DNA of 64,000 bases, taken from assembly GCA_964030475.1 (NCBI GenBank), contig CAXIPT010000007.1:5794916-5858915 (forward strand). The letters are read 5' to 3'. Origin of the DNA: Tethya wilhelma (taxonomy: Eukaryota > Porifera > Demospongiae > Tethyida > Tethyidae). The notes below the pieces were generated by a model. That model was not told the DNA's origin. It ran no database searches and saw nothing but the letters and a program-made list of their open reading frames with translations. Position numbers and translations under genes: made by a program. Every line of letters begins with the position of its first letter. The first letter of the stretch is position 1. Shown in pieces: positions 19,117-47,421 of this stretch.

Positions 19117-22100
19117 ATGATGGCTTCCCAATCTGTTCGTTATGAAGTCGTTCGGAGGTACCTCGATCGTCTAGTGAGAGCAGTACAGCCAGTTGTGGTT
19201 GAATTTGCCGTGAAAGCATTTGCATATGAGCTGATCTCAGATCGAAGCCAACATAATGCTTCAAATGATGCAGTAGACCCATACATTAGAGCAAATAATC
19301 TGCTGACTGACATTCTGAATCAGATCGAACAAGACGAAAAACATTTCGATACGTTTGTTGACATCTTGAAAGAGGTTCCTACATTGAGGGGCGTGGCAAA
19401 AGAGCTTGAAGAGTTCAGCAAAAAAACATCCATTGTGGCGTCTAGCGAACGAAACAGCACACCTGAAGTGAGCTCCAGATCTAGTTCTGGAAATAGGAAT
19501 TCATCTGAAGACAGCGGCATCTTAAAAGCTGCTACTGTAAGCTTTCAATGTTCTTGTGGTAAAAACTGTAGCCTGGATACCTTTGTGGGGGGTGAGTGCT
19601 TAGGCCAGCTCCAAAATTTATTTCCTTTTCTTGATCTGAGCCAGATGGATGAAAATGGCAAGGAAGCAGTTGTTCGTAAGCTAGTGTCTGAAACAAATGA
19701 AATAATAATGAAGTTCGAAGAATTCAAATACAGCATTTTCAAGTCTCTGAAGGATCAAAAAACCTCTACTAGTGATCTTAAAGAAGTTATCCTTTGTTTT
19801 GGTGAAGTAAGTCATCCAAAGTCAATTTGTAAAGAGCACAGTCAGCAGTTGTTACTAGCTACAACAATTGCTCAAATTCATTCCTTCCTCACTGCCCACA
19901 ACTACATTACCTTCATCAACTACAGACTACTGAAGAAAATAGTGGACCATCTTGGTACATCTGAGGACAAAGCACGCATGGAAGAATACCTCAGAATCTT
20001 CCGTGAATTCTGTAAACGCCAAGTATTTGAAGTTCCAAAGTGTGTCTTTCAGGCTAGTCCATCACCCACTAACAGTATTGATACACAACTTGTGGTGAAA
20101 GTAAATGAGAAAGCCTGGTTTAAAGCTAAGCGTGGATCATCTGAATGTATATTCAGTCTAAATGAAATATATGTCATTGAAGAGACTATTGCTAAAGAAA
20201 TTGATCTTGATCCTCATTCTATTCTTATACAAGATGTGGAAGATGGATGTGTACCACTTTCAGTCACTGTTTTGACAGAAAAAGCCACTTTACATTTCCT
20301 CAGCTATAGTGCTGTACAACTAGACACTGGTATTGCCATTGCTAAGCAGCCTTTATCCCAAACAAAATCAGACCACTTAGCCTCTGTTCTACCTACCAAT
20401 GTACCTCATGACCAAAAACATCTCAATAAAGGTAATTAAATTCTTAGGAAACAATTGTTATTAATTCTGTCAATACATTACTTTTGGTAATGCATGAAAA
20501 TTCACAACCCAAACCTAAAGGAATGGCCTGCTAATGCCTGCATGCTCATGTACAAGTGCATAGATTTTAATTGCTTTTATACATGCACACAAAGGCATAT
20601 AATCACTATAATTATTATTATTGTGATAAAACACACCACAAGGATGCACAAATGGACTATGGCATTTGAATGACACTAGCATATTATTGGGGCGAGCATG
20701 AGTGAGCCCCACATAAGATAGTATAATTATATAGTGCCACAAAGCTAGGTGCTAAGGAAATTATAAAATTATGACAATGGTAGGAATCAGGTCTGGGTGT
20801 CCCACTGACACAATACATAATCTTTGTAAGTCTTCAAACATGCTTAGAGGCCTCCCTCTGACAGTTTTTTTAACTACATTTATCAACAAAAACTTATAGT
20901 TAGAAGCCACAACAGTGCAATATTGCATTCTTTCTTCTTTCTAACTGACAAACTTGAATACAATTTCCAGAAAAACAAAAGGTGTGCACTGAGCCCACTT
21001 TAATTGACTGTACAAAGTATATTGAAAGCAACTTTGTTTCATCCAATATTCTTTTGTACTCATTTATACTACCTAACTTACAAGGAACACATGTACAGAG
21101 CGTAAATAGCCGGGCAAAGGTGGGAAAAGGGCAGTGGGGTATTGTAATGTATGCATGTGCGCAACACATGTACAATGATGATTATTATACACACAAGTAT
21201 GATGTTGATATAGTTATTATTATCATGTATTGCCCACATAGTGTATGTGCAGCCAGGCGTAGTCCCAAATTAACACATGTTATACATAGTATAAATTTAT
21301 TGACCCCAAATCACCATCAATGAATAATAATTATACGTGCATTTGTATAATAGGTCCCAATGCCAGATATCTTAGGGCTGATTCAAACATTGGTTCCAGT
21401 CTATCTCCATTAATTTCACTGGCTAAATTTCAAGCTGATGGAAGGCTACATCTCAACGAAGAAGCACTGGACCTATTGAAGACAATACCCTCTGACAAAT
21501 CAGTTGCTGTGCTGTCAATTTGTGGGCCATATCGAACAGGAAAGTCCTTCTTTCTTTCTCGTATGTTGGGCATTGATGACACTTTCAAAGTTAGTTCTGA
21601 AGGTGATTCCTGTACCAAAGGAATTTTGATGTCCACAATTGTTCTTGAGTGCAACAACTTTGTTGTGGTTTTTTTTGAAGATGCTACTCAAGAAGGACTG
21701 TCTCAGTCTACTACTGATATGACCAAACTGCTGGTCTTTATAACACTTATGAGCTCATATCTCATCTACAACACAACAGCATCTCCAAAGAGAAGTGACC
21801 TAGATAAACTGAAGTGAGTATGAACATAACACAATTTATGCACATGCCAGCCAATAAATATTAGTGTATTGAGAAGTGTTTCCACATGAACATGCACCCA
21901 CGCTATCCAGTGAATTTATAAACTACAGTGAGTGAATTTACATTTTAGATCTGCAATTTTACATTAATTTTGGTGATTCAGTCCTGCATGCTAAATTGCT
22001 AGTCTCGTCCCGGCCTAGAGTACATTGCATACGCGTGCAAATGCATACAAAACATACTGTTTGGCAATTTCATGAAAATTAATTTGCCAAATTTACCCGC

Positions 22101-25100
22101 CGATGGTATTGGGCTGGTTTGCATATTAATTGTATTATTCAGTATGCCTCTGAATATTCTGCAGTTGCTTTTCTCATATTGCTGAAAGCATCGAACTAAG
22201 TGAGGGATCTCATCCCAGTGATCTTGATCATGAACAAAACTTGAAGAAAATTTTCCCAACCTTTCTCTGGATGCTATATATACAACCTGAAATCAATGAT
22301 CAACTTATATCCTTCAAGGAGCACATTAAGCAACAGTTAGTTCTCATTTTAAGTGCCGACAACAGTGCTGTACACACCATTCAAAACCTCTTTCCAACTC
22401 TGGAATTCTGTTCAACTCCACCTACATCTGACCCACTGATTGAGGACCAACAGTTTCGAAATGCAATTGATGGAACTATTGATTCTGTGCTAGCCAGTAT
22501 ACTTCCAAAGAGAGGTTTTGAAAACCAAGTACCAATTAGTGGTGCTTTGCTGTCAAATCTTGCTGAACAATATGTACAAGCTTTGAATGAGCCTGGTGCA
22601 ACAGTCAACCTTGAAATTTCTTGGTTAAAAGCAGTTAAAAGTCATCTTATCAATTGTTGCCACACATTTGTTGAAGAGTATCGTCAGGAAATGGAACAGA
22701 GACTTCAAGGGAGGCTTCCCATTGAGGAAGGAGATTTGAGTGATCTAAAAACCCAACAATCACCAGACACACTCGCTGGAATACACCAGGATATCTTTAA
22801 AGAAAAACTAAGAGTTACTAAAGCTGAAGCTATCCGTACTTTGCCATCAACAAATAAAAACACAAACACAGCAGATGAGCTACTCATCACTCATTTCCAT
22901 GAAAAGATAGTTCATGTACAAGATGAAAGAATTAAAGGAGAACTATCATTCTTTATTGCAGTAAATGACAAAAAATCCCAGCAAATTAATGAAGAACTGT
23001 TTAAAAATCTCAGTAGTAAACAAACTGATATTAGATTGCAACAACTAAAAGCTGACTACTTAAAGAAAGCAGTTGGACCAGCAAAAAAAAGAGTGTTTGA
23101 GAAAGAAACAAAAGACATACCTGGTCCTCCACAGAGTATAAGTATTGAATGCAAACATGTTTGTGAAGTCAAAGTTACTTGGAAACAGCCAGAGTTCAAT
23201 CCTGCAGCAGCAAGAGAGTATGAAGTGCATGTATCAGAAGCTCAAAAAATCTCCTGGGAAGAACATATCTCTGCCATCAAGGAGATTCAACTTAAGGTCA
23301 AGCCTAATGCCAAGTATAAACTTCGAATCCGAGGAGTAAATTACATCAAAAATGGAGAATACTCTGAAATTGTGACCTTTAGTACTCCACCAGGTAGACC
23401 TGAAACACCTCAAAAACCAACTATAGAACTTCATTCACTTACAAGAGCAACATTTTATATTCAGCGACTGTCTGAGCAGCAAGAAAATGGCAGCCCAGTG
23501 TCTCATGTCATAGTTGAGGGTTGTGTTCAAAACGATAAGTTAAACCTTAATTGGAAACCATTGCATACAGAAATTGTTATGCCTCTATTGCAAGATACAA
23601 TGCACAATGTCATATTTGATGTTGATATTACAAAGCATGAATCTTCTGAATCTAATGAAGAATCATTTCTATATCGAGCTCGAATGAAAAATGAAGCTGG
23701 TTTAAGTGATCCAAGTGATCTCTCAGTTATTGCAACCAAAGAGATTCCTCCTGGCAGAGTGCAATATACCACACAGGAATGTCAAACAGAGGCAAGGAAA
23801 GTTGTACTGTCATGGCAACCTCCCAAATACTACCCCTCATCTGCTCAGTGTTTTTATGTCCGCTACAAGAATGATTTAAGCAGCAGCTTCTCACAAGAAG
23901 TTAGATATGAACAGAGGAAAGCTACCATAGAAAATTTACAGCCAGCCACTAGCTATACATTTGAAATTTGTGCAGCTAATGCTGCAAAGGGTAAAGGTGA
24001 ATGGCGTGCAATCTATTTGAAAACACTAGCAGATCGTCCAAGTACACCAAACCAACCTTCAATAGTTGTGGTGTCTCACAACACAATCAAACTCATTGTT
24101 AAACCACTGACAGAGCAAGAAGAAAATGGCAAGCCAGTTCACACTGTTGTTGTCCAACAGAAGAAATCGTACAGTTTGAATGAAGGGAACTGGGGAAATG
24201 TTGCCAGTAAAAGTGTAAAGCTAAGTCAGAATCCATCCACAGGATCTGGATCTGAGAATATTCAATTTGAGTTACAGTTTGATAGTGACTGTCTTGAAAC
24301 TGATGACACAAAGCTATTCTATCGAGTTATGATGAAAAATGATATTGGCTTGAGTGATCCTAGCAATGAAATTGAATTGAAAGCAAATTATTTGAGGCCA
24401 GGTCCAATAAGTTTAGACAGAGTATGCTGCAAGAGTAAACCTACTTCTCTTACCCTCAGGTGGGGATTGCCATTCAACTCTGCAGCTGTCAAGCACTACC
24501 TTGTAGAAAAGAAAATTATTGCTGCCAATGAATGGAAATCATTACAACAAATCTATAAGAGAAAAGATTTGTCATTCACTGAAACCGACCTCCAACCTAA
24601 TACTGAACATACCTATAGGGTCACTGCAGTTACTGAGCATTTTACTGAGACTTCAAATGAACTAATTCTTCGCACTGAATCAGCTTGTCCCAAACAATCA
24701 ACTATTAAACCAATGAAGGATATAATCTCTTCAACTAAAGTTCTGCTCCAAATGCAAAGAGCTGAAGTTGTCTCTCAATACTACCAATGTGCTGAAAAGT
24801 ACACCCATGTTCCTTTTATTGATCCTGTCACGGTGGTAGCCTGTGATCACCGAGGCATTGAACACACTCTAGAGGAACATGACATCACCTTGAAGATTCT
24901 GCCAGGTTCTATTCCTAAAGGGAAGTTGGTTCACTTTGAGCTAGCTGTGGCATTGTATGGTCCCTTCAGTTTCCCTGACAACACACGTCCCATCTCCCCC
25001 ATCTTATGGCTGTGTCCTCAAGAGGAGATTGAGTTTAACCTTCCGATCATGGTGACTCTTCCTCATATCTTGAATGCAGGACTTAGTCAGGAGGATTTAG

Positions 25101-27708
25101 CTCAAATGGAAATCGGTTTCGTTAAAGCTGACCACAATGACTATTCTGGATCAAGCGAGAACCAAAATGTGTTATTCAATTTTAAGTCATGTTCTGTCAT
25201 GCCTAAGTTTAGCTACACTAAAGAGAAACAAGGGTTTGCCACTTTGGAGACGACCCACTGCTGCTATTTCTGTCTAAAAAGTAAAAAGTCTCCGCAAGTT
25301 GCAAGAGAAGCTGGGTTTGTTTTCTCTCGTATCGATCACCTGTCAAAATCATCGATTCATGTGGTTACCTTCTGCGTGACATTTTTTTTGGAATCTTGTT
25401 TGAAGGTACATGCATGCATAAAACTGACAAGTATTGCATTTTTTGTTGTTGTTGTTTTTTAAAATTTCACCTATGAAGGCTTTATGACTACATAATTATT
25501 GTACATGTAGGTGCTGATGTCTCAGTTTCCATCTTCCTCAGTGATAGATAAGCGAACGTATCGATTTAGTTTAAAAAATGATAGTGAAGTTGATGTTAAT
25601 GCAGGATCAGAATTAAAAATTTCACTTCAAAATGTTGATGTATTTGAAGAAACATACGTTGGTGACATTCATCCACTGGATGGAAAGGTAATCAACACTA
25701 AGAATAATGTACTTTTAAGTCTTGCATGCATGCATGTGACTCAGTCATGGATATCATAATCTTATATACTGTTGAGTTTCTGTTTGAACCATCAAATATA
25801 TATATATATATTTTTTTTCTGGCTGTACACATGCAGAATTATCATGTGATTATTCACACATTATCATACGTACGGTAGTACGTATAGTAGGAATGGGCCG
25901 GCTGTCCCATAGACACAATACAAAATGTTTATGATCATAAAAAGGCTAGCAAAACAAAATTGAGTCTTCAAACTTGCTCACAGTCTCTCACTGACAGATT
26001 ACCAATTGTATGCAAGGCCTAAAACTCACAGAACCTTTCCCCAGCACTCGTAGAGAGAGCTAGTGGGAAGCCACAATAGTGCAATTTTTGTTCAACCAGA
26101 AAGTGTTGAGCCAACTTTGACAGCACAAAGTAACTCCTTTTCATAGGTACTACATTCCTTGATACTCGTTTTCATCACACTGAATAAGCCTAAACAAAAA
26201 CTAGAAAGCTTTGAAACTTAGAGTATAAATTCACGTACTTCAATGTAGCCATCTTCTTGTAGGTAGAGTTCAAAGGTCATCCACGTGGCATTAAACGCGC
26301 ATGCGCATAAGCTGCTCTAGCAGCCAATGTAGTTGCTTCTCAGATAACTCAAAGCTTTTTATAGGAACTAACCAGTCTCTGATAGTCTCTTCACTGTAGT
26401 GTTGAAAAAAGTGAATGAACAAGTAGTAAAAATTTCAAAAAAATAAGCAGTGTAGGAATGGGTAGTGCATTAAAAAGTATTGGAACAAGGAACGGTCCCA
26501 ATTTCGGCACATGACTACTTCATTTTTGTGCCCAAGTCTTGGCTGGTATTAATCTAATCCTGCATGCTATATATATACTAAGTTATTCCACTTTTAGCCA
26601 AGTGATAAGATTGGCAGGAATTTGAACCAAGCTATTCAAGTACAGATCATTCTTTGAACCATTTACGACAATAATAGCTATGCGTGAGGGATAAAAATGA
26701 AAATGAAGTAGTCATGTGCCGAAATTGGGACCATTCCTTGTTCCAATACTTTTTAATGCACTACCCATTCCTACACTGCTTATTTTTTGAAATTTTTACT
26801 ACTTGTAANAAGCAAGTGGCTCCATTCAATTGTGTCCAGCAACTCGATTGCCTTCTCAAAGTCAGCCAGAGAGTATCTCCAGACCTTCCTAGGCACAGCT
26901 TTCCTCTTCCTTGGTTTGTCAACATATGAAATAACAGCAAGACTTAAACCAAAATGGTCAGCACTAGCTAGAGGAGGTATTGTGGTACATAATGATACAT
27001 TAATAGCTGGTGATACAAACATAAGGTCTATGAGAGTTGAGGAACTGCTGGTGACTCGAGTAGGCTCAGTGACAATTTGAGTAAGGTTAAAACATGATAC
27101 AAATGATAATAACTTAAAGTACAAATTAGAAGTAGTAAGAAAATCTACATTGAAGTCACCAAGAAGAATAAAATTTTGAGGTAGAGATGTGAAAAAATTA
27201 CAAAAAGAAGAATGTAACTCATCAAAAATAGTGACATTTGAGCTGGGAGGTCTGTAAAACAAAGCAATACCAAGACTAGGAGGACTAGTAGTAACAACTA
27301 GCAATTCAAGGTTGTTCCCGCCTTGGAACAAGACTGAGCAAGGCATTAATTTTTTAAAAAAAATTTAAGTTTACAGCTGTGTTTTTGGACATGCATGCAT
27401 GACTATAATTATTGTTAGATGCCAGCAATGATCATACTACTGTTTGTGGATACTTAAGAAGATTAGACAGAAGACAGATTGTGCATCTTGGAGGAGAATT
27501 AGGCTTGGACCCACATAATCTTGAGAAGATGGTGGACCTTCCTGAAGATATGGTGAGAGCTTGGCTCCGCAGAGAACATTGTGTATTAGACAAGTGTGGT
27601 AGTACACTCACTTGGGATGTTTTGATTGAGTTTCTCAGGAGAATGGGACAACGAGGCATTGCTGATGAGATTTATAGAGAGCAAGTGTGTACATTACACT
27701 CAGTCTAG
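19117..27708 (+). CDS. CARD-GBP-FN3-ZU5-UPA-Death multidomain protein (copy A)
   Basis: Exons: 19117-20431, 21354-21813, 22165-25405, 25511-25687 and 27419-27708. Phases agree over the first four (1,731 codons). The last exon needs one extra base, so a small exon is missing or a weak alternative donor at 25719 is used. Domains: CARD-like death fold (about 8-103; RANNLLTDILNQIEQDEKHF); unrecognised module (about 145-410); GBP-type GTPase (439-591, P-loop GPYRTGKS) and GBP helical domain (592-about 905); five FN3 modules plus a truncated sixth (about 910-1470); ZU5 (about 1475-1640; ITLKILPGSIPKGKLVHFEL); UPA-like segment; Death domain (LRRLDRRQIVHLGGELGLDP). The GTPase lacks the DTEG (G3) and LRD (G4) motifs. 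I infer a cytosolic death-fold signalling protein. The ligand is unknown. Confidence 0.82.
20776..21090 (+). mobile_element. Degenerate copy of the cluster repeat (5' part)
   Basis: This lies in intron 1 of copy A. The sequence GTAGGAATCAGGTCTGGGTG followed by GTCCCACTGACACAATACA is a diverged version of the 5' part of the repeat at 25862. Further matches continue through TCTTCAAAC, CTGACAG and the CCACAACAGTGCAAT segment. No terminal hairpin arms are present. Confidence 0.5.
25862..26807 (+). mobile_element. Cluster repeat, copy 1 (non-autonomous, about 108-bp inverted arms)
   Basis: The element starts ATCATACGTACGGTAGTACG and GTAGGAATGGGCC. It carries a CACGTGG box with GCGCATGCGC (26297-26306). 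It ends in a large hairpin whose left arm (about 26420-26528) is repeated inverted at about 26699-26807. The arms contain TATTGGAACAAGG and TTTCGGCACATGACTACTTC. It has no coding capacity that I can see. It sits in the intron between the UPA-like and Death-domain exons of copy A, and ends at the single N at 26808. Confidence 0.8.
26809..27346 (-). mobile_element. Non-LTR retrotransposon endonuclease fragment
   Basis: A minus-strand open frame of about 178 residues resembles an APE-type endonuclease/exonuclease/phosphatase domain of a non-LTR retrotransposon. It shows LLGDFNVDF, STLIDLMFVSP and the C-terminal SADHFGLSL (SDH-type) motif. It is cut at the N at 26808, so the reverse transcriptase is not present. 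It lies antisense in the last intron of copy A. Confidence 0.8.
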
Positions 27709-29941
27709 CTGATTATTTTACTGTAATGTTAACCCTGCATGGTTGTGAATTTTTGCTTTTGCACTGATCATGATCATGTGCCCAGATATTAATTGCCATG
27801 AATGCATTATTATGTCAATATTATAATTGCATGATTGTACAGTGTATACACAGTTTTTTAACAAGGAAAGTGTAATGTTTAATGTACTTTTATAGTTACT
27901 GTAGAGTTATTATTACAAAAACATTAATTTTGTTATGGTACCTATGCATGCTTGAATAGCTAAGTTTATTCAAACACTAGGCTCATGAACTGGCAATAGT
28001 TAAGAGTGTAGTCTACATACTGCCCAGTACCAAATGAGACTGCTCCTTGAACTGGTCACCATGCACCTTCCACAGGGATCAGATGGAAGAACTAGCCATC
28101 GATCGTGATCGGGTGTACCTGGAGCAAGCTAGGTAGGATGGCAGAGAAGGAGTACTCACACTAAAGAAGGAGTACTCACACTCTGTTTCACCGGATGGAA
28201 AAGGACCATTGACACAAAGGAATGACTCAATTTGACCCAAAGTTGGATAGAATTTGGAAATTGTACTTGTGATCTTTGCCAGATGACTTCACGAGAGTAA
28301 GTATACAACCATCTTTGTAAGATGGATGGTTGTCCATGTATCCTGAGCTGACAAAGAATCCCCACTGCCAATTACTGCCACCTTTCACCTTATGATTGCT
28401 ACACAAATAGGCTTTAGCACCATAGCTTGACTCCAACCTCAAGTGCTTATATAGTTGTTTTGCACAACATTCACCACATTGCTGTTCATGTACTTCATCA
28501 CTTCCTTACCTTCTGATGTCTTGTTGAGCTCAAAACCAAGAGCAAATTAAGATCTTATAGCTATTCTTGATTTCATCTCCATATAGGCTGGTTCTGAGCA
28601 CTACTTTATAGTGAGCAGAGGATATCAGCACAGGATGACATTTGACCGTTTGAAAGAAAGCCTTTGCCTGTGCAACTACAATGCTATTCTTACGAAACAC
28701 TAATTTAAAAACTGGTGTCATGGCATGGTGAGTTTGTTGCCTGAGAGGGGCAGGTAGAGTGCATGCTCAGTGTGGTAAAATACTCATGCATGTATCATCC
28801 ATTGAGTTGACACTCCAATCAAGTGCATGATGTCATCTTCACTTTCATATTTCCCATAAATGACCACCATAGAGTGTTTGTCACCACAGATGATCCTCAC
28901 TATTTGAGCAGCAGTTTCTGGGTATATATATATGGGAGCACCCATTAGTGTGCATGATGATGCTAAATGACTTAGAGGGTACATATTGTGTTACACTGAC
29001 ATTGTCATAGTCCTGTGTGGGTATTCAATTAGGAATCTTCCTGACCCGTATCGGGACCATTGGACACCAGCTGATATTGATGGTTGAGATTGTAGGCCCT
29101 AGGGAATCCAGTCTGATGCAGGCGCCAACAGCCATCCTAGACTTCTGGGGAGAGGGATGTATTGTGGATAACAGATACAGGGTGCCTGAAGTTACTAGAA
29201 GAGGAACTGATTTGTATTCATATTTGTACTTCTTGGGATACTCAGAGTAAGGGTACATGTACTTGAGGTCTTGGTTGGTTGAGTAGTTAGGACGCTTGGC
29301 ATTTCTCCAGTCATCAAAAGAGGAAGCTTGGAGGAAGCTTGCATGGAGAGTTTGTGCTCCTTTTGCAGTATGTCTTTCTCTGCCATCATTATAGGCTGCT
29401 TGACTTGACTCCAGTTGAAAACAAGTCACCAGTTTAATTCAATCTACAGGAGATATATATGCTGTAAGTCTGACTATCAGCATAACTGATATAAGAGCTA
29501 TGTATAGGCTAGCTAGCTCAATCATTAGGCCTTAAGTGTGCAGAGAAGTTAAAAGCACGAAAGTGAATGCATAGACAAGCACTTTTACTCTATCTAATAT
29601 CTGCTGCATCCGGGTCCACTCTTGTGCGCATGCGCATGCCGTATCTACTCACGATCATTTCACTCACTGACTGCTGTGTTTGCTGGTTTCTAACCATAGA
29701 ACAGACTTGGTTCTACCATGCCGTGCATAGAAAATGTATGATTATGTACGGTTTTGTTGGTTTTTTCCGATGCATTGTCAATGACTCATCTTGCTAGTCG
29801 GCTCATTCTAGCACGCGCGCGCCGCAGTTTTAAAGAAGGCGTGGCTCCTCACATGATACGTACATGCATGATCGACCATACTAGGAGAGTGATCCAGACT
29901 GTCTTCCTTTGCACTGAGAGACTCAGACAGTGACTTCAGCT
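27709..29941. pseudogene. Spacer with minus-strand coding-like remnants
   Basis: Between copy A and copy B I see no intact gene. On the minus strand, short open pieces at about 29429-29025, 28721-28530 and 28442-28227 read like protein (GAQTLHASFLQASSFDDW; VLRTSLYGDEIKNSYK; WQWGFFVSSGYMDNHPSYKD) but are separated by stops and frame changes. I do not recognise the family. They may be a decayed gene or chance. The last 300 bases are the upstream region of copy B, with TGCGCATGCGCA at 29625-29636. Confidence 0.3.
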
Positions 29942-31676
29942 ATGTCAGCCTCTAATTCTGTACGCTATCGAGTTGTTCAGTCTAACTTTGATCGTCTGGT
30001 GGCAGCAGTAAGTCAAGTTGCATGTGGTTGAAGTTGCTGTGAAGGCGTTTGCTAAATCTTTGATCTCTAAGCGTAACAAAAGTGATGCTGAGAATCCCCA
30101 TAATAACCCATATGATAGAGCAAATATTCTATTGACTCATATTCTGAACAAGATCGAGGAAAATGAAGCTCATTTTGATACGTTTATTGCCATACTAAAG
30201 GAAATTGATGTCCTGAAGGGCGTGGCTGATTACTTAGTCAAAGCAGTGACAGCTAAACAGAAAATGACTACAACTATAACGAAGTTCGTCGATAGGCCTA
30301 CCAGTCCATCTACTCCTGCGAGTACTACAGTTTCTGAAAAGTCAATTCCTAGGCCACCTGTACAACATATACCTCAACACAGAATAGTAACTGTTCCTTT
30401 TACTCCTGCAATTGTCAATGCTCAGTCACAAGCTTAAGAATCTACTAAAATAGCATCATTACCTAAGCCTAGACTCTCTGGATCCTGGAATTTAGAATCA
30501 CCCACTTCAGCTGGCTGTGTTTCACAGCAACCAAGAGGTATATGTATGATATATGTGCATAAAAATTAAATTTTATCTGAGCTATATCATTCCAAGTCAT
30601 GTGACCGTGAAAAGTACCAATGAGTTCTAGAAATTTTGCTGTTACTAATTCAATTAATTGCAGTTTAAGATGCCTCCAAAAATGAATATTAGCAAAAATT
30701 CATAGTAATACTTAATATGAACTAAAATCCTATAGATTTTGTACAATAATTCCTTCATTCAACCATGCTGACTATCATGTATGCGCAATACTAGCCTCGT
30801 CCCCAGGCCCAAAAGAGGGCCTGGTATCTATTGACTGCGCATGCGCCAGTTTGTACCCAAAATCTGGGTACATCGTAAATTTCACCGTAAAATTGTCCGT
30901 ATACTCTGTTGACTGGATTACGTCATAGGTATTTTCGAAGCGCTAGGCATAGAAAAGCTAAGAGAACGCTTGTCTCTTTCCAAGCACTTACTTGATATAT
31001 TTCCAGAAGAAAAGAGTGGAATAGCAGCAGTAGCCAACCCAGGTAGGACTGTAGATCAATCTTTTTTTCGCTGAAATTACGCGCATGCGCAGTCAGTAGA
31101 CACCAGGCCCTCTTTTGGGGGCCTGGGAACGAGGCTAGCGCAATACCTTCCAACAATAATGATTATTTTGTATACAGGTTCCAATGCCAGCTATGTACAT
31201 GCCTTTGAAAAACGACAGCTACGTCTTAGGGGTGATTCAGATATCACCCTTCCCCCATCAATCTGGCTTTTAAAGTTTCAAGCTGAAGATGGAAAATTAC
31301 AGCTAAACAAAGAAGCACTTGAGCTTCTGAAGACAATTTCTTCGAACAAACCAGTTGCTGTGCTATCAATCTGTGGGCCATATCGATCAGGGAAGTCCTT
31401 CTTTCTCTCTCGTATGTTGGGCATTAATGATGCTTTCAAAGTCAGTTCAGAGTGGGATCCATGCACAAGAGGAATTTGGATGTCCACAATCATCTTAGAA
31501 TGTAATGACTTTTTTGTCATTCTTCTTGACACTGAAGGAACAGATGCTGCTGAAGCAGATGACAATTTGTCTGCTACTTATGCGACCAAACTACTGGTTC
31601 TTACAATTCTCTTGAGCTCTTACTTCATCTACAATACACAGGGATTTCCAAGAAGGGGTGACCTTGACAAACTGAG
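29942..31676 (+). pseudogene. CARD-GBP gene copy B (frameshifted CARD, partial)
   Basis: The ATG at 29942 gives MSASNSVRYRVVQ, parallel to copy A. Compared with A, four extra bases near 30015 shift the frame inside the first CARD helix. The shifted frame then continues the CARD (AFAKSLISKRN, RANILLTHILNKIEENEAHF) and a Pro/Ser/Thr-rich linker to an in-frame TAA at 30435. Open sequence continues past it to a donor near 30536. The unrecognised module of copy A is absent. The GTPase exon 31178-31676 is intact, with GPYRSGKS and DTEGTD, and has the same entry and exit phases as in A. No helical/FN3 exon follows before the next GTPase exon at 37673. It is either a pseudogene or the 5' part of a gene shared with copy C. 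Confidence 0.65.
30791..31138. mobile_element. MITE with about 58-bp terminal inverted repeats
   Basis: The ends read CTAGCCTCGTCCCCAGGCCC and, inverted, CTAGCCTCGTTCCCAGGCCC, and extend through the palindromic GCGCATGCGC. The 348-bp element lies in the intron between the CARD and GTPase exons of copy B. It contains an open stretch (about 30930-31042; EALGIEKLRERLSLSKHLLD) with splice-like borders that could be mistaken for an exon. Solo ends of the same type occur near 4630, 22000, 38985, 54220, 54395 and 56310. Confidence 0.75.
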
Positions 31677-31680
31677 GTAA

Positions 31681-33787: not shown

Positions 33788-33930
33788 AATAGTAAAAATT
33801 TCAAAAAAATAAGCAGTGTAGGAATGGGCAGTGCATTAAAAAGTATTGGAACAAGGAATGGTCCCAATTTCGGCACATGACTACTTCATTTTNNNNNNNN
33901 NNNNNNNNNNNNNNNNNNNNNNNNNNNNNN
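33788..33930. repeat. Solo left arm of the cluster repeat and N gap
   Basis: About 105 bases match the left hairpin arm (GTAAAAATTTCAAAAAAATA, TATTGGAACAAGG, TTTCGGCACATGACTACTTC). The sequence then breaks into 38 Ns (33893-33930). The other arm is not seen, so the gap or joint probably removed it. Confidence 0.8.
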
Positions 33931-36093: not shown

Positions 36094-37672
36094 ATTAAAA
36101 ATCAGTTTCTGTATACATGTATGGATTAATCTTAATAATCACATAACAACTTGAACATCATTGTATGCATATGGGGTTAGCATGATCTGTGAATAGATTG
36201 TTGATCAGCAAATAAAAAAGCAAGCGCTCAGGCGCTAGGCGCATCATATCGTAGCGTGATGCAGTGCAGCTGAAACTAAGGAGGCTATATCTATGTACAA
36301 GTACAAAAGAAGCTAAAGTGAAATATAACTAGGCCTATATAGTGAGTACCAAGTATCACTAACAGTCTACCTATACTCTTCTAAGAGCGTATTTGCTTTT
36401 CCATCCAAGTCGTGAAAGGGGTGACCATTTTTACGAAGGATGCGTGATTTCCCGTGTATATCAGTCACCCGGGTTCCCAAATGAACGGTAAAATGGGCAC
36501 CCGGGTGACTAGATTTTACCGTGAGATTAGTCACCCGGGGTGACTAAAATGGGGGGTGACCAATTTCACATGACATCAGGTACCAGCTCCGGCCGCTCAG
36601 GCTGGGCTTTCAAAGTTTATTGCAATGAGTATTGACCTAACTTGGTTTGAATCAGAAATAGTAGATCTACCCTTCCTTTTGTATCTTAGTCATTGTTTTA
36701 CCAGGACAATAGCTTTTGTTGAAGCATAGAGGCCCTGCACGTTTCACAGTTCAATCATGCATAACCCCGTGACATGTATTATTGTGTTTAGCTCTATACT
36801 GTATAGCTAGCTATACCATTGCGTTTGTCTGTCAATTCGTCATTTGCAATCGAGCATATCCTGTAATATCAATGGCAACAAAAGGTGAGTGATATTATAT
36901 GTCGGGCTTATTTCTGCTTACAGTAACAGTTATATTCTGCATGACTGTATATATATATATATATATACAGTATACAATATATATATATATACAAGGAGTG
37001 TGGCTCGCTTCGCTCGCCACGCTCCTTGCATGTATATGAAGTATACTGATGTTTCCTGTAGATGCATGCAAGTATAGGCATCTGCATAATAATAACTGGG
37101 CAGTGAAAGGTTAACCATGCGCATGCATTCACTGCTCCTCTTTGCAATTTGGCCAGCTCAACAATTTACTCAGTTACGTGACGTCACAGACGACCCTTTT
37201 CCGACTTCCGCCATTTTTGCAATCAGCTGACAAAGAAACTCGTTATCTGGCTAGCTGTGTTTCGTGTACAGCGACAGAGAAGCAGACTCCTAGAAGCAAA
37301 AGTTCTCTCCTTACTACGCTTCTTTTATGGAAGATTGGCTGCTCTATCACGCTTCTTTGTCGGATACGGGTGGCACTGGTAAGCCTTGTTAGCGCGGATC
37401 TCAAAAACTGTCAGCCATACTTGTAGCGCCTGTGATTCTATCCTAGGCTAGCGCTATCTAAGCTAGCTATCTAGGCACTCTTTTCGTGGCCTGCATTTTC
37501 CACAGCCCAGAGAAAAAGTAGCATTTTAGCTCGAGGTCGCATCACTTCCGGTGAACTTCCGTGACACACAGACGGACACACAAAACTTTGCTTATAATAT
37601 GATATAATATATATACATATATATACATACATATATATATACATACATATATATACATATATATATATACAG
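36094..37672. other. Spacer upstream of the copy C GTPase exon
   Basis: I see no convincing gene. Notable pieces are several GTCACCCGGGT-type units between 36460 and 36560; (TA)n tracts at 36946-36990 and 37605-37670; and a hairpin (CAAGGAGTGTGGCTCGC with its inverse, about 36991-37028). A CARD exon for copy C is not found here. Confidence 0.5.
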
Positions 37673-40600
37673 CGGAAAATCGTCAATTTCGAAATCTAAA
37701 CTTAGCTGTCAAAAATACTGAATCTTCAATCCAGTTGGTCGAATTTTCAAAAGAAACTCAAGGAAAGCTACTCTTAAAAGATGATGCCTTAGCACTCTTG
37801 GAAAACATACCACGCAACAAACCAGTTGCTGTGCTGTCAATCTGTGGTCCCTATCGATCAGGAAAGTCCTTTTTCCTCTCTCGTATGTTGGGCACCACTG
37901 ATGCTTTCAAAGTCAGTTCTAATATGGATGCATGCACGGAAGGAATTTGGATGTCCACAACTGTGCTAGAATGTGACGATTTTGTTGTAGTTCTTCTTGA
38001 CACTGAAGGAACAGATGCTGCTCAAGAAGGGCAGCTGCAGTCCACTACTGATATGACCAAACTGCTAGTCCTTGTAACACTTTTGAGCTCATATCTCATT
38101 TACAACACACAAGGAGCTCTGAAAAAAAGTGAACTAAATAACATGAGGCAAGTTTATTATTAATAGCCCAGGCATGCAGTTACTGTAGTAATGAAGGCAC
38201 CTACGGTGCATAAGCCTCGGCGCACTCAACTAGCATGTACAACTAAACATGTACATACAAATATTATAAAAGACAATCAGTACTGAGACTTCAGCAAGTT
38301 CAGCAACTTGCAAGGTGGCCTGAGTCACCGGCGGCAGCCTGAGCCTAACACGGTTTACTATCTGAAATTCTAGCTTCTGCAATCAAGAATGTGCTGAGCT
38401 GTGGTCAACCTAGCTATAATAACCCTCTGTTAAGAAACTGGATGGTCAGTAAACAGTAATACTTTGATGCTTATGGCAGTACTAGTACTGCCCCATGATG
38501 ATCACACTGAAGGCCAGTCAGGCACTGATACAAAACACACAACTAACCTATTTCTACACAAGCATTACCTCACTATATTCAACTTGCAATCATTGAGTTA
38601 CTTACCTGTCCAAGCAGCCAAGCCAGCCAAGAAGCTCAAGTCCATCTATGTCTATGAGGCCATGATCCAAGCCTACAGTATTTCTAGATAACGCACACTA
38701 TATGGGGCGTGATCAATGGGTGCGGTTTCGAAGCCTAAGCGTTCAGAGAAGCACAAAAGCCTCAGAGCTCAGAAACTACAGCATTTTGCAAGATTCTACA
38801 CGTCAAATTTCAAGATAATATCGATTCATGAACGTAAGTACCTTCCATTTTGACTCTGGAGCTGCCGTTCTTCAGATAATTTAGTAACAGACAGACAGAC
38901 AGACACACAGACAAAACGACTACCGTAATCCTCTGCACGTGCTACGCACGCGCCGAGGCTTAATTATCAGTAACAGCCCTAGCCTCGTCCCTGGGGACGA
39001 GGCTATAACAGCCCTAGCTCCCACCTATTGTATTATCATACGTACGGTAATATGTATCTAGTAGGAATGGGCCACATGTCTCATAGACCCAATACAAAAT
39101 GTTTATCACCATAAAAATCTAACAAAACAAAGTCAGTAAGCCCTGTAGGTAGAGTTCAAAGGTCATTCGTTATCTATCCACGTGGCATTGAACGCACATG
39201 CACATTAGTTACTCTAGCATCTGATCACAATGCATGTAGCTGCTACTCAAGCTTTTTGTAGGGACTAACCAGTCTCTAACAGTCTTCACACTGTAGTGTT
39301 GAAAAAAGTGAATGAATAAGTAACAAATTTTCAAAAAATAAGCAGTGTAGGAATGGGCAGTGCTGTAAAAGTATTGGAACAAGGCATGTCTCAATTTCGG
39401 GCACATGACTACTTCATTTTTTTTGTGTTTAAGTCTTGGCCAATATAATCTAATCCTGCCTGCTATACTTCATTCCACTATTTAGCCAAGTGGTAAGATT
39501 TGCAGGAATTCACGATCGAACCATTATAGTATGTGATACTGTTGCTCAGCTGATAAACTTCATCTACAGATAATTCTGAAACTATTTATACCACAATAAT
39601 TGAGGGATCAAAAATGAAAATGAAGTAGTCATGTGCCTGAAATTGAGACATGCCTTGTTCCAATACTTTTTATCACTGCCCATTCCTACACTGCTTATTT
39701 TTTGAAATTTTTGCTATAATGCATTCATGAATTTTATACTTTACCGGACTCTCACTCCATTGCAATGCAGCATGTATTATGTCAATACACATAAATATTA
39801 TTGAATGCATGTAAATAACTGCATGTGTTATTAAGTTATACTTTCTTTATATATGCAGCTGTTTTTCTCAAATAGCTGAATCAATTGTACTTTGTGAAGG
39901 TTCAAATGCTAGTGATCATCTTCATGAGCAAAACTTACAACGGTTTTTCCCACGATTTCTCTGGTTACTACGCGACAATCAACTTCAGGCAAAACTTAAT
40001 GATAAATCTGTTTCAGTCACAGATTATGTGAAAGAGAGAATTCTTAACGTACCAAGCAGTGATCCTCAGAATCATCAAGAGCGTGTTCGAGTTGAGATTG
40101 CACGCACTGTTACAAAGCTATTCCCATCACTGGAGTGTAGGCAAACTCCACCTCCTAGTGATCTAAATTCTCCTTCAGATTCTAAATTCCTTGATTCAAT
40201 TGATGAAGTGGCAATATGTTTACTAAACTCTATACAACCAAAGGAGAGTTTTGGTGACCAAATTTCTATCAACGGTTCGATGCTAGCAAACCTTATTCAG
40301 CAGTATGTGAGAGCACTAAATGAGCCAAATGTAGTACCCAATATTGAGCTCAGCTGGATAGAAGCAGCTAAAAATTATCTTTTAGGTCGCTGCCATGAAT
40401 TGGTCACAGAATATTCAAAGGAAATGCACCAGAGGCTTCATGGGAGGCTTCCCATTGAGGAAGGAGATTTGAGTGATCTACAAATCCAACAACTACCAGA
40501 CACACTTGCTGGAGTACACCAAGAAATCTATAAAGGAAAACTAAGTGTTATCGAAGCTGAAGCTACCCGTATTCTGCCATCAAATAAAGAAGCAGATAAA

Positions 40601-41378
40601 CTGCTCATCATTCACTTTCAAGAAAAAATAGTACATAGTGTACAAAATGAAGGTATTAAAGGAGAACTATCATTTTTTGTTGAATCAAATCACAAAAAAT
40701 CCCAGCAATTCTGTGAAGAACTGTTTGAAACACTCAGCAGTAACCAAACTGATATTAGATTACAACAACTAAAAGCTGACTACTATGAGAAAGCAGTTGG
40801 GCCAGCAAAAGAAAGAGTGTTTGATAAAGAAACAAAGGACATTTCTGGTCCTCCACTGAATGTAAAGATTGAACACAAAAGTATTCATGAAGTCAAAGTA
40901 ACTTGGAAACAGCCAGAGTTCAATCCCACAGCAGCAAAAGAGTATGAAGTTCACATATCAGAAGCTCAGATAATTTCCTGGGAAAAACATACCTCTGCCG
41001 TCAAGGAGATTCGAATAAAGGTCAAACCTAACACCAAGTATAAGCTTCGAATCCGAGGAGTAAATAATGCAAAATGTGGAGAATACTGTGAAATTGTAAC
41101 TTTTAGTACTCTAGCAGGTAAGCCTGGAACACCTCAAAAACCAACTGTAGAACTTCAATCATCTACAAGAGCAACGTTTTATATTCAACGGCTATCCAAA
41201 GAGCAAGAAAATGGTAGCCCAGTGTCTCAGGTCATAGTTGAGAGCTGTGTTCAAAGTTGTAACCTTGATTGGAAACCACTACATACAGAGATTGTTATGC
41301 CTCCATTGCAAAATGCAATGCACATATTTGATGTTGATATTACAAAGCATCAAGCTTCTGAATCTAATAAAGAAATAT
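37673..41378 (+). CDS. GBP GTPase-helical-FN3 gene, copy C (3' cut at joint)
   Basis: Exon 37673-38147 encodes a GBP-type GTPase with all key motifs: GPYRSGKS (G1), VVLLDTEGTDA (G3), and in the next exon FLWLLRDNQL (the GBP RD motif for guanine recognition). The intron has a GC donor (AG then GCAAGT) and ends at 39858. Exon 39859-41378 encodes the GBP helical region (GRLPIEEGDLSDLQ, PDTLAGVHQEI), the first FN3 module (VKVTWKQPEFNPTAAKEYEV) and most of the second, ending at the N at 41379. Entry and exit phases of the GTPase exon equal those in A and B. No own CARD exon or start codon is visible. It may share the copy B 5' exons, or these may lie outside what was assembled. Confidence 0.8.
38209..38966. 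mobile_element. TIR element in the copy C intron
   Basis: CATAAGCCTCGGCGC at 38209 recurs inverted (GCGCCGAGGCTTAATT) at about 38950-38965. A run of ACAGACAGAC lies near the right end. The element of about 760 bases has no recognisable coding sequence. Confidence 0.5.
39034..39716 (+). mobile_element. Cluster repeat, copy 4 (internally deleted)
   Basis: The 5' end (ATCATACGTACGGTAATATG, GTAGGAATGGGCCACATG) is followed by a shortened middle and both hairpin arms (about 39320-39420 and 39610-39716). The GCGCATGCGC palindrome is degraded to CGCACATGCACA. It lies in the intron between the copy C GTPase and helical exons. Confidence 0.75.
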
Positions 41379-41379
41379 N

Positions 41380-41586
41380 CCATTGTAAGCCAGACGACAG
41401 AGTTCTACAAAGTTCTCTTGGAGATCTTGTGGTAGCTTCTGTAAACTGCTTGCTTTAAGAGTTGGATTTTCTCGTGACATTGTCATCAGGATGTTGGTCT
41501 CATACAACTTGGTTCGAGTGTTTGGTAGACCAGAACCATCTTCAAACATTTTCTTACACACCTCAACAGTGAGAGCACACTGGAGA
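41380..41586 (-). pseudogene. NLR (NACHT-associated) gene fragment between two joints
   Basis: The 207 bases between two single Ns are open throughout on the minus strand. They read LQCALTVEVCKKMFED, LPNTRTKLYE and LPQDLQENFVELCRLAYNG. This pattern (P-L followed by a hydrophobic helix, then P-x-T-x-T-x-LYE, and L-x-x-LAY-x-G) is typical of the region after the NACHT ATPase in animal NLR proteins. It is a fragment placed inside the GBP gene by assembly or by insertion. It interrupts the plus-strand gene and is not part of it. Confidence 0.65.
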
Positions 41587-41587
41587 N

Positions 41588-44500
41588 CAGATTATGTAAA
41601 CGAAAGAATTCTTAAGGTGCCACGCAATAGTGACCCCCACAAGCAACAAGAGTGTGATCGAGTTAAGATTGCACATACTGTCACAAAGCTATTCCCATCA
41701 CTGGAATGTAGGCAAATTCCATCTCCTATAGATCCATATTCTCCTTCAGATTCTAAATTCCTCAATTCAATTGATGAAGTGGTAACATATCTACTGAATT
41801 CCATACAACCAAAGGAGAGTTTTGATGACCAAGTTTCCATCAATGGTCTGATGCTAGCAAACCTTATTCAACAGTATGTGAAAGCACTGAATGAGCCAAA
41901 TGCAGTACCCAATATTGAGCATAGCTGGATAGAAGCAGCTAAAAATTATGTTGTAGATCGCTGTCGGGAATTGGTCACAGAATACTCTAATGAAATGCAC
42001 CAGAGACTTGATAAGAGGCTTCCGATTGAGGAAGGAGATTTGAAGGATCTACAAACCCAACAACCACCAGACACACTTGCTGGAATACACCAAGAAATTT
42101 TTGAAAGAAAATTGGGAGTTATTGAAGCTGAAGTTACCCGTACTCTTCCATCAAATAAACTGGAAGAAAACTCAGCATATAAGCTGCTCATTACTCACTT
42201 CCACAAAAGAATAGTTCATATCCGAGATGAAGGCATTAAAGGAGAGCTATCATTTTTTATTCAAGTGAATCACAAAAAATCCCAGCAACTTTGTGAAGAA
42301 CTGCTTGAAAATCTAAGTAGTATTACTATACAAACTGATATCAGATTGAAACAACTAAAAGCTGACTATTATAAGAAAGCAGTTGGACCAGCTAAGAAAG
42401 GGGTGTTTAATAAAGGAACAAAGGACATTTCTGGTCCTCCACTAAATGTACAGACTGAATGCAAAAATGTCCATGAAGTTATAGTCACTTGGAAACAACC
42501 AGAGTTCAATCCTGCAGCAGCACAAGAGTATGAAGTTCACATATCACAAGCATCAACAAATTCCTGGGAAAAACATACCTCTGCAGTCAAGGAGATTCAA
42601 CTTGTGGTCAAGCCTAACACCAAGTATAAGCTTCGAATCCGAGGCGTAAATGACATCAAAAATGGAGAATACTCTGAAACTATATCATTTAGTACTCCAC
42701 CTGGTAGACCTGAAACACCTCAAAAACCAACTGTAGTACTTCATTCACCTGAAAGAACGACATTTTATATTCAACGACTGTCTGAGAAGCAAGAAAATGG
42801 TAGCCCAGTGACTCATGTCATAGTTGAGAGCTGTATTCAAAGCTATAGCCTTGAATCAGGTTGGAAAGTATCGCATACAGAAATTGTTAAGCCTCGAGCT
42901 GTGCATAATGCAATGCACATATTTGATGTTGATATTACAAGGCATGAAGCTTCTGAATCCAATCAAGAATCATTTCTATATCGAGTTCTATTGGAAAATG
43001 AAGCTGGTTTAAGTGATCCAAGTGATTGCTCTGTTATTTCAACTAAAGAGATGCCTCCTGGCAGAGTGCAATGTACCACACAGGAATGTCAAACAGAGGC
43101 AAGGAAAGTTGTACTGTCATGGCAACCTCCCAAATACTACCCCTCGTCTGCTCAGTATTTTTATGTCCACTACAAGAATGATTTAAGCAGCAGCTTCTCA
43201 CAAGAACTTAGATATGAACAGAGTAAAGCTGTCATAGAAAATTTACAGCCAGTCACTAACTATACATTTGAAATTTGTGCTGCTAATAAAAAGTACAGAA
43301 GTGAATGGTATACAATCTGTTTAGAAACACTAGCAGATTGTCCAGTTGCACCAAACCAACCTTCAATAGTTGTGGTATCCCACAACAAAATTGAACTCAT
43401 TGTTAAATCACTGACAGAGCAACAAGAAAATGGCAAGCCAGTTCACACTGTCGTTGTCCAGCAGAAGAAATCATACAGTTTGAATCAAGGCATCTGGAAA
43501 GATGCTGCCAGTATAAGTGTTAAGCCAAATCATGATCAGACTCTGTCGGACTCTACAGAATGTGAAAATTTTGTTAAATTTGAGTTACCGTTTGATAGTG
43601 TTACAACTGATGACACAAAGCTATTCTATCGAGTTCTGATGAAAAACGATGTTGGTTTGAGCAAACCTAGCAATGAAACTCAATTAAAAGTCAGTGATTT
43701 GAAGCCTGGTCCAATAAGCTTAGGCAAAACCTACAGCAGGAGTAACCCTACTTCTCTTACCTTCATGTGGGGGTTACCATTCAACTCTGCAGCTGTAAAG
43801 CATTACCTTGTAGAAAAGAAAATTATTGTTCTCAATGAATGGAAATTACTACAACAAATTCAGAGAAAAAATGACTCGTCATTAAAATTCATTGAAACTG
43901 ACCTCCAACCTAACACTGAACATACCTATAGGGTCACTGCAGTTACTGAACGCTTCACAGAAACTTCAAATCAACTAGTTCTTTGCACTAAATCAGATTG
44001 TCCCAAACAACCAACTATAAAACCAACAATAGATATAGTCTCTTCGTCTGAAGCTGTGCTGTGTATGCCTAGACCATTTAAACATGATGGTAATGGAAGT
44101 CCCATTAACACAATTGTTGTTGAAAGAAGTTACGACAATGGAAATAGATGGGAACAAGAAGACATTAAATTTTCTCCTGGGAAAGGACTCATAAAACTGA
44201 ACTTATCTATACCTAAAACAGCAGGTATAAATTTAATTTGCTTCCGTGTACGATTACAGAATGCAATGGGAAAGAGTGACCCTAGCCCAATATGTGAAGT
44301 AACACATGACATGCTCATTCCAGGACCACCATTAAATGTAACTCACAAAGTAAGTTCTCATGATATTCATCTCTCTTGGAAGAAACCTACTGTACATCCA
44401 AATGCAGTGCACTGGTATGGTGTTCAATACAAGGAACGTAAAAGTTCCAAATGGACTTCTCCTCAGCGATCTACTGATCTCTCATGTACACTGCCCAATC

Positions 44501-47421
44501 TAACTCCCAACACTGAATATGAGTATCGAGTTTGTTCTGTTAACAAGAATAGTAAAGTTGGAGAGTTCTATTCGTGCACTGCAGTGGTAACAAAAAAATG
44601 TGTTCCAAGGAAACCAATAAATGTAGGAATTAGAATTATTTCAGACTGCAATGAAGCCAAAATAACAGCCCACCACCCCAACTTAAGTGAAAGTGGATGT
44701 GCCATTACACGTGTTTATTCACATTTATATGACAGAAATGACCAGAGGTATAAGTCAACAAAACATAATGTAGAAACCAATGATAATAATCAAGTGATAA
44801 TAACTGTGCCAATTGAAGATGATAAAACCCATTCAATTAGGATTAGTTTCATTAATGAGATGGGAGAAAGTGACCCAAGTGATCCACTTGAGATTAAGAC
44901 ATTAGAATTAAAACCTGGAAGAGTTTCATCTCTTTGTCTGAAGGAAGCCAGTAATGATCGCCTCACTTTATCTTGGAAGAAACCAGAGAACATGGGAAGA
45001 CCAGCTATTATGTATGAAGTTTGGATTCAAAATAATGGAGAGCAGAAATGTCTCAAGACAATATCATCTACAGAGACAGAAATACCCAATCTTAAACCAT
45101 GTACAACATACAAGGTTGCCATTCGGTCGGTAAATGGTGACTTGAAGAGTGAATTTAGTGAGATTAGTGCAAGCACAGTTGCTGCTCGGCCATCAAAACC
45201 AACCACTAAACCAATTGTAGATGTAGTCTCTTCAACCGAAGCTCTGCTCCATATGCAAAGAGCTGACAAAAGTGATGAAAATGGAAGTCCAATTTCAACA
45301 ATTGTAGTTGAAAGAAGCTGTGACAATGGGAATCACTGGGAATCAGAACACATTAAAGTTTCTCCTGGAGAAGGAAATATACAAAAGAAAATATTATTAC
45401 CTAAAACTGCTGTCAATTTGATATCTTTCCGTGTACGATGGAGAAATGAAAAAGGTACCAGTGACCCTAGTCCAGTATGTGATGTAAGGTCAGATGAACT
45501 CATCCCAGGCCCACCTTCACAAGTAACTCACAAAGCAAGTTCCCATAGTATTGAGATCTCTTGGAATAAGCCTCTTTTACATCCAAATGCAGTTGCTTGG
45601 TACTACATTCATTACAAACCTACCACCGAATCCAGATGGACCTCGAGCTCCACTCAACCTCAGCAATGTACTGACCTCTCATGTATACTGCCCAATCTAA
45701 CTCCTAATACTAAATATGAGTATCGAGTTTGTGCTGCTAATAGTAAAAGCAAGGAAGGACGGCCTGTTTCAGGCACTGTAACTACTAAAAAATGCCCTCC
45801 TAAGAAACCAACAATTTTAGGAATGACAATCATTCATCCAAACAAAGCAAAGATTACAGCTCAAAAGCCAAACATAAAAGAAAGTGGAAGTCCTGTTATT
45901 CAAACCCAGTTGTACTTGTATGATGATAGCCATGAACAATTTTCCTGTGTCAAAGATGACTTAACAGTTGGTGATGACCGAGTAACAGTAATTATGACAA
46001 TTGGAGATGAGAGGACCCATTTTATTCGAATCAGTTTCATCAATGAGGTAGGAGAAAGTGAAAAAAGTGAACCACTTGAGATTAATGAATCTGACATAAC
46101 CCCTGGAAAAGTGTCAGACCTTTGTGCAACAAATGCTAGTTTTGATCGCTTCACTTTATCTTGGAAGAAACCTGAGTACATGGCAAGAGCTGTTAAGAAC
46201 TATGAAATTAAAGTAAAAACTAATGGAGAGTGGAAATCTCACTACACACAATCTGAGACAAAAACTGAAATAGAAAATTTAAAACCATGTTTGAAGTACC
46301 AAGTTCGTGTTTATGCCACTAATGGAGAGCTAAAGAGCAGGTTCAGTGAAATTGAAGCTAGCACAGTTGCCTCTTCACCTATGAAACCTAGCATTAAGAG
46401 TTTAGTAATGCATGCTTCTGATTCTAGCAAAGCAATAATCAGATTTTACAGGTTAACTAAAGAACAAGAGAAAGGAAGTAAAGTCAAGTCAGCTAAACTG
46501 GAGTGGTCTCATGATACTAGTGAATGGAAGTTTGGATGTAGCTGGAATATTGAGGATGGAAATAACCAAATAATTGAAAAGGAATTTGGTCTTCCAGAGT
46601 CCATTACTACAAAACAAACCAAGAGTGCTTACTTTCATATTACTATGTGCAGTGAACATCTACAAAGTGAACCAAGTGACCCTATTGTATTTGAATCATC
46701 AGATCTCTGGCCAGGATGTGTTCAAAACCTTACAGTAATGGAGAGACAAGTCCATTCTATCAAAATTGGGTGGAGTGCTCCAAAAGTCAATCCACATGTA
46801 GTTAAACATTATGCCATTCATTGCTATGAGAAAAAAACTGCCAGTGAGTTGACACCATGTCAAAACCATGAAGTCAAATCAGATTTTGAAACAATTGAAA
46901 TTGAACGGTTAGCATCAAACCGAACCTACCTGTTTGAAGTGTATGCTAAATCAGATAAATATACTGGACCACAAAGAGAAGTAGAAGCTAAGACTAAAGA
47001 AATTATTTTTGGAGCACCTGAAAACATTCGTGCTGAATTTAGACAACGTGAAGCAATAAAAATTCGCTGGTCCAAACCTTCCCAGTCAGGAACACCAGAA
47101 TCACCAACATACTACAAAGTGTCAGTACCTCGTGTTGGGTTCACTAGACTAACAAAAGGGATGTCAACAGTGATCAGAGGATTAGAACCATCAGAAGAGT
47201 ACACTATTAAAGTGACTTCAATGAATGACAATAATAAATCTGGCACTAAATCTACTGGAAGTGCAACTATTGAAACAACCATGAGCATGGCAAAGCGAGT
47301 ATTTGGTGCATTTGCAGTTGGTGTGCCAACCTTAGGACTTGGCACAGCATTGGTCCTTGAAAAAACTAAACAAGCTGTTGATAAAGACATGGTTGAAACA
47401 GATGAAGAGTATGTACCATAA
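41588..47421 (+). CDS. GBP helical-FN3(16) protein, copy D (5' cut at joint)
   Basis: One open exon of about 1,944 residues starts after the N at 41587, in the GBP helical domain (TVTKLFPSLECRQ, KRLPIEEGDLKDLQ). From about 42430 to 47280 it encodes 16 FN3-like modules of about 100 residues. Canonical W-x-x-P types (VTWKQPEFN, LSWQPPKYY, LSWKKPEN) alternate with divergent ones (FYIQRLSEKQENGSPV). The C-terminus is a hydrophobic stretch (VFGAFAVGVPTLGLGTALVL) followed by a charged tail ending EEYVP. There is no ZU5 or Death domain, unlike copy A. The hydrophobic tail could insert in membrane, parallel in effect to GBP lipidation; this is inference. The GTPase is not assembled. The 5' part duplicates copy C sequence from about 40024 onwards. 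Confidence 0.85.

Follow-up and report, generated by a model that had tools for sequence, protein, structure and literature searches.

Do a GBP-type large GTPase, arrays of FN3 domains and the signalling domains of animal cell death belong together in proteins of a sponge, and if so, on one chain? The question is raised by a 64,000-nucleotide stretch of the Tethya wilhelma genome (GenBank assembly GCA_964030475.1, contig CAXIPT010000007.1, positions 5,794,916 to 5,858,915), hereafter the window, for which an earlier annotation (the original prediction) had described a tandem family joining CARD, GBP, FN3, ZU5-UPA and Death domains. We analysed the window, which lies on the contig labelled C7 here, together with the genome searched (124.6 Mb in 204 contigs). 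The proposal of a diversifying family of death-fold-linked GBPs was supported, as the copies vary N- and C-terminally and different end modules occur at other loci. As to its meaning, we lean slightly towards a reading in which death-fold modules were shuffled onto GBPs, the products probably being caspase-recruiting sensors at membranes.

A GBP-FN3 family with varying ends

Three GBP first exons (one each in copies A, B and C) lie on the forward strand of the window from 19.1 to 47.4 kb, as do three GBP/FN3 exons (copies A, C and D). Coding repeats with 63-94% DNA identity link A, C and D. All three first exons match the Pfam GBP profile (E values of 6e-19 in A, 2e-23 in B and 1e-22 in C; 69-83 bits against a cut-off of 21.1), and Pfam FN3 was recovered in three stretches of A and nine of D, confirming both the GBP exons and the FN3 arrays. 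The claim of identical exon phases also held: the GBP exon is entered in phase 1 and left in phase 2 in both A and C, and the same is true of a related locus on another contig (C5). The number of copies had been given as at least three or four. Four is generous: B has a CARD fragment with a broken frame and a GBP first exon, and C and D meet at single Ns.

Vertebrate GBPs likewise combine a large GTPase domain, marked by the P-loop, DxxG and RD motifs, with the helical GBP_C domain, but mammalian GBPs are not known to bear FN3 or death-fold domains. The P-loop GxxxxGKS was found in all three first exons of the window, as GPYRTGKS in A and GPYRSGKS in B and C. Copy C and C5 retain every GTPase motif that we looked for. 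In copy C, the GBP exon (37673..38147, forward strand) contains the P-loop and DTEGT and ends at a GC-AG donor, and exon 3 (39859..41378, forward strand) contains the second GBP part with LLRD, GBP_C and FN3 before it stops at an N. Exon 3 of copy D (41588..47421, forward strand) comprises GBP_C, a long FN3 array and a C-terminal hydrophobic tail (about 47284-47421). Pfam GBP_C scored 29.1 bits in C and 26.2 bits in D (cut-off 24.3), and gave no match in A at E <= 0.1. A 207-base piece lies between C and D with a single N on each side (41379 and 41587), and the two may be parts of one gene or of two. A short first exon considered for C (37327-37378) was dropped as a repeat, since similar sequence occurs in L055 and L057.

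A hydrophobic segment follows the last FN3 domain not only in D, but also in C5 and at a further locus, L012. GBP or GBP_C is combined with FN3 in four long proteins (P0005-P0008) encoded on other public contigs. By eye, similar hydrophobic tails close P0007 and P0008, whereas P0005 and P0006 show none; hydrophobic stretches of other kinds end P0010 and P0015-P0017. Proteins P0019-P0025 were left unused, as they matched through FN3 (the named ones being neogenin and fibronectins). Since such tails end D, C5 and L012, as well as P0007 and P0008 as judged by eye, we rejected ZU5-Death as the normal C-terminus of the family. Some vertebrate GBPs end in a lipid-modified CaaX tail rather than in a hydrophobic segment.

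Death-type exons accompany two other GBP genes (L037 and L069), in both cases at a compatible phase 1 as judged by eye. At 1395 kb of contig C1, the exon (26.2 bits) has phase-1 ends and lies upstream of a GBP-FN3 gene, and at 3300 kb of contig C2, it lies 0.3-0.4 kb downstream of the GBP gene. Because the N-terminal module described below was not seen at some loci and Death exons stand upstream or downstream at others, the ends of these GBP genes seem to vary, apparently through exon swapping.

The N-terminal module and its association with GBP

Copy A starts with an exon (19117..20431, forward strand, donor phase 1) that is supported by a splice model, an alignment of 19 modules, model and fold matches, and motif counts. 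Its parts are a CARD (residues 5-103; 19129-19425), a four-Cys motif (19543-19599), a DED-like bundle (residues 195-303) and a TRADD-N-like part (residues 322-411). The DED-like and TRADD-N-like parts go beyond the original prediction, as do the loss of GTPase motifs in copy A and the finding that the C-terminal tail is common to other loci. The alignment contains 19 of 20 module loci, with copy A (L049) as the window reference; L053 was excluded for an internal stop.

The CARD of the original prediction stands by its fold and not by its profile. The structural model and its fold matches support a six-helix CARD fold in the module, but Pfam CARD matched none of the 19 sequences at E <= 0.1, nor any single exon. 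The module gave a best E value of 0.15 in a sequence search of the PDB and no result with NCBIfam. The late rows among the fold matches (the ACE2 neck and RRMs) were taken as indicating a general alpha/beta arrangement only. Pfam NCOA6_TRADD-N had no match in the genome at E <= 1, and the control genomes gave none either. At the turn between beta2 and beta3 of TRADD-N, where a tiny residue is followed by Ser and at times by Cys, a Gly-Cys pattern was found in 18 of the 19 modules and in four of the five A3 rows. In L056 the pattern caught a nearby G-S, with GC coming after it, and L051 is without that region.

A protein search with the module gave at least 100 matches, merged to at least 89 loci; these counts are lower bounds, 93 of 276 candidates having been scored. 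Partners were counted from 100 module rows, 102 of 102 for NACHT, 27 of 27 for CARD, 23 of 39 for GBP and 34 of 35 for ZU5 (without C4:57233), to which four more were added, in part from the window. Looking up to 15 kb downstream along the strand of the module, the first partner was GBP twice, NACHT twice, ZU5 once and Pfam CARD once; partners other than GBP thus predominate. At single loci, the module reads on into a CABIT domain (L067, E 1e-9), a weak SH2 that falls narrowly short of its cut-off (L055), an ATG16-like coiled coil, also under the cut-off (L066), or a glycine-rich hydrophobic segment (L062).

Both GBP partnerships, at A and at C5, have the same architecture: some 0.9 kb separate the module from the GBP exon downstream of it, and donor and acceptor phases agree. 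By chance, 0.004 modules would be expected in the 1.1 kb ahead of nine GBP exons. Copy B has the same order, with a CARD relic (29942..30437, forward strand; 61% identical to A over 71 aa) standing 0.7 kb from the GBP exon (31178..31676, forward strand), which was identified by Pfam GBP and a motif check and keeps the P-loop and the G3 motif DTEGT. Compared with A, the relic has four extra bases near its start, which put it out of frame. No second GBP/FN3 exon was found downstream of the B exon, where a run of 38 Ns (33893-33930) could hide something.

Could the pieces instead be separate genes, namely a module-only adaptor, a GBP-FN3 gene and a ZU5-Death gene, that lie side by side and were wrongly joined? 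We regard this as unlikely. The explanation accounts well for the 83 of 89 module loci at which no NACHT, ZU5, GBP or Pfam CARD was found within 15 kb downstream, and for several GBP-FN3 loci without a module: no CARD exon was found upstream of copy C, nor any module at C or at three GBP-FN3 loci at 2.64-2.71 Mb of contig C7. It would also explain why the Death-type exon behind copy A is out of phase. The GBP loci without a module also weigh against the module being part of the GBP gene, as does the state of the C5 module (L051), which contains an N and shows no match to the first CARD residues. A weak Foldseek result and this incomplete CARD slightly lowered our confidence that death-fold modules were shuffled onto GBPs. 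Separate genes are, however, difficult to reconcile with the order, spacing and exact phases of module and GBP being kept on different contigs, and with the single open frame, 1102 aa long, that FN3 and ZU5 of copy A share.

Copy A as a chimera

The exons of copy A that follow the module are the GBP GTPase exon (21354..21813, forward strand, phases 1 and 2), supported by Pfam GBP, the splice model and a motif check; exon 3 (22165..25405, forward strand), with the rest of the GBP part, an FN3 array broken in mid-domain, ZU5 and the start of UPA; and exon 4 (25511..25687, forward strand, phase 0), which carries the first half of UPA and was recognised by tblastn against the paralogues L016, L018 and L019. 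GT-AG joins in phases 1, 2 and 0 connect the four exons (19117-25687) into 1731 open codons, and a single transcript would be expected to span them. A three-way comparison with D and L016 placed the fusion point at 24736..24800 (forward strand), where D-like FN3 coding sequence runs in frame into the inside of a ZU5 exon. The array follows D until it breaks off halfway through an FN3 domain, and a brief run of similar sequence lies at the join.

The G3 motif DTEG is absent from A, and LLRD of C and C5, whose RD we take to be the G4 residues, is replaced by MLYI. On both grounds copy A very probably does not hydrolyse GTP. With G3 and G4 missing from its GTPase and an FN3 array that passes into ZU5 partway through a domain, copy A is, as far as its sequence tells, a chimera.

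The predicted ZU5 was upheld on a trimmed piece (22.4 bits against the Pfam cut-off of 21) but not on the whole exon (19.9 bits), and a PDB sequence search with it found nothing at E <= 1. The ZU5 boundary, which reads HFS in PIDD and FIIND, reads HCC in 12 of 13 sequences including A (24770-25405 of the window and L016-L028). The F-S autoproteolysis site is lacking in these 12, which says nothing of a Cys-based cut; HCC makes such a cut worth considering.

The Death-type exon (27419..27708, forward strand) is weaker as a domain call than predicted, with 14.4 bits in Pfam against a cut-off of 22.6, although it has at least 150 relatives in the genome; three of seven relatives matched Pfam Death at E <= 0.1 (best 0.018). 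The exon needs an incoming phase 1 and is out of frame with exon 4, which ends in phase 0. A second UPA exon, which paralogues place at this point, was found at eight of 12 paralogous ZU5 loci (not at L022, L026, L027 and L028; E 1e-5), and none was found in the window. In A it was either lost or is hidden at a single N (26809), which may mark an assembly join and lies in the very intron expected to hold the exon. The same intron, before the Death exon, contains a fragment of a non-LTR-type retroelement endonuclease (26816-27364, reverse strand; Exo_endo_phos_2, E 1e-9). Owing to the phase of the Death exon and the second UPA exon not found, the claim that all domains lie on one chain, from CARD to Death, is unproven, and what is in frame extends over exons 1 to 4.

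The state of copy A may also be read as that of a dying pseudogene of joined pieces, with the type of D and C5 being the sole working one. We take this to be a serious possibility, somewhat short of an even chance, and it is compatible with the family reading given above. The loss of the G3 and G4 residues, the FN3 domain broken midway, the failure to find the second UPA exon in the window and the retroelement fragment would all fit decay. Nevertheless, the four exons and their 1731 codons are open and in frame, and neutral simulations predict stops except on very short branches: at a branch length of 0.125, exon 3 gained about 15 stops and none of 500 runs stayed stop-free, while at 0.02, 44 of 500 did. 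On account of these simulations, copy A does not appear to be simply old debris. The w values of its ZU5 against five relatives (0.15-0.22) resemble those of the relatives among themselves, though most of the divergence behind them may predate the fusion. Among the copies, w was higher for A-D (0.56) than for C-D (0.40) and D-C5 (0.36); values from the FN3 part (0.61 for A-D and 0.51 for C-D) are safer, because D begins at an N and its start misaligns.

Single Ns were treated as possible, though unproven, assembly joins, and one may ask whether they are forced joins that render C/D, the intron of A and part of C5 chimeric. We consider this doubtful, and it would leave the family reading intact. 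The Ns at 26809, 41379 and 41587 are what it predicts, and repeated sequence flanks single Ns at C5 (L051) and L032, which are perhaps unmerged assembly overlaps. On the other side, the synonymous divergence (dS) of 0.33 between C and D exceeds what we would expect of alleles, and no N occurs in copy A between the start of exon 1 and the end of exon 4, the FN3-ZU5 join included. A and D were likewise rejected as alleles (dS 0.54).

Comparison with known systems and possible function

Zebrafish Gbp3 and Gbp4 possess GBP and a C-terminal CARD, and inflammasome activation by Gbp4 needs Asc and GTPase activity (PMC4932187). A figure legend in that paper, covering the zebrafish proteins and human GBP5, lists FIIND, a counterpart of the ZU5-UPA of copy A, and does not state there which protein carries it. 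The fish proteins thus resemble ours in tying GBP to CARD. They differ in bearing the CARD at the C-terminus, where ours is N-terminal, and neither FN3 nor DED nor TRADD-N appears in the legend; in addition, copy A has lost GTPase motifs and its ZU5 boundary reads HCC.

A survey of TRADD-N proteins describes a DEDD2 clade with fusions to GBP, FIIND and UPA-ZU5, its text naming no animal for them (Kaur et al. 2021, PMC8195603). It also reports expansions in Amphimedon and other marine invertebrates, in which a constant N-terminal unit of death-fold and TRADD-N precedes variable C-termini (PMC8195603). The module agrees with these expansions in this arrangement and in having SH2, listed among the sponge partners and weakly matched here in L055. 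Conversely, FN3 or fibronectin has no occurrence in the main text, and no GBP is named for the sponge and no four-Cys motif mentioned in the sections covered. An NLR-like protein from an ENA contig (P0001) can be aligned to A through 313 aa of its N-terminal region, which contains the CARD (E 3e-20); it has Pfam CARD at 27.3 bits and one FN3. It differs from copy A in carrying NACHT and LRR in place of GBP and, by eye, a second CARD-like stretch, and it has neither the four-Cys motif nor the Gly-Cys pattern. Among titles and the beginnings of abstracts, with few subscription journals covered, we found no GBP with an FN3 array and no CARD-TRADD-N-GBP-FN3 protein. The statement that no described protein unites all parts is thus tempered by the zebrafish GBP-CARD proteins and the DEDD2-clade fusions, although no protein of the order seen here came up among those titles and abstracts.

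If death-fold modules were indeed shuffled onto GBPs, the commoner form would consist of a GTPase with its helical middle domain, an FN3 rod and a short C-terminal hydrophobic tail, and one lineage (A, the relic B and C5) would have gained CARD, four-Cys, DED-like and TRADD-N-like parts in front, the joint being a phase-1 intron at A and C5. The GTPase may assemble on a membrane or an invader, positioned by tail and rod, and the clustered CARD/DED modules could then, much as an inflammasome does, draw in a caspase or some other death-fold adaptor, with a putative role in defence. Copy A would be a later chimera, in which an in-frame break inside FN3 was joined to a ZU5-UPA gene and the GTPase motifs were lost; it might serve as a decoy or regulator, or be a gene on its way to decay.

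A more far-reaching version, in our view rather improbable, is that a non-vertebrate lineage independently built a GBP inflammasome in one protein, with a membrane-anchored GBP, FN3 domains for reach and a caspase-recruiting CARD-DED-TRADD-N cap. Exchange of its ends (tail, ZU5-UPA and Death), by way of phase-1 introns as well as illegitimate fusions in frame, would have produced a lineage-specific, interferon-free repertoire of intracellular sensors, with copy A as a pseudo-GTPase regulating the active copies.

GBP and CARD cooperate in vertebrate inflammasomes, and in fish they do so within one protein. Death-fold GBPs in so distant an animal, with the order reversed and an FN3 rod added, would suggest that the partnership was invented more than once, and comparison of genomes would make the order of these inventions testable. 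Copy A, for its part, would be a clear example of domain swapping with the breakpoint preserved.

Other features of the window

A dispersed repeat starting TAGTAGGAATGGGC occurs in introns of A, B and C (25.9-39.7 kb) and near L019, L021, L050 and L053. It is possibly a short DNA element, and such an element could aid recombination. Upstream of copy A, two related long open reading frames without visible introns lie on the reverse strand (12828-15266 and 16677-18035; 813 and 453 aa), the second being shortened. Neither matched Pfam at E <= 0.01, and both look leucine-rich by eye.

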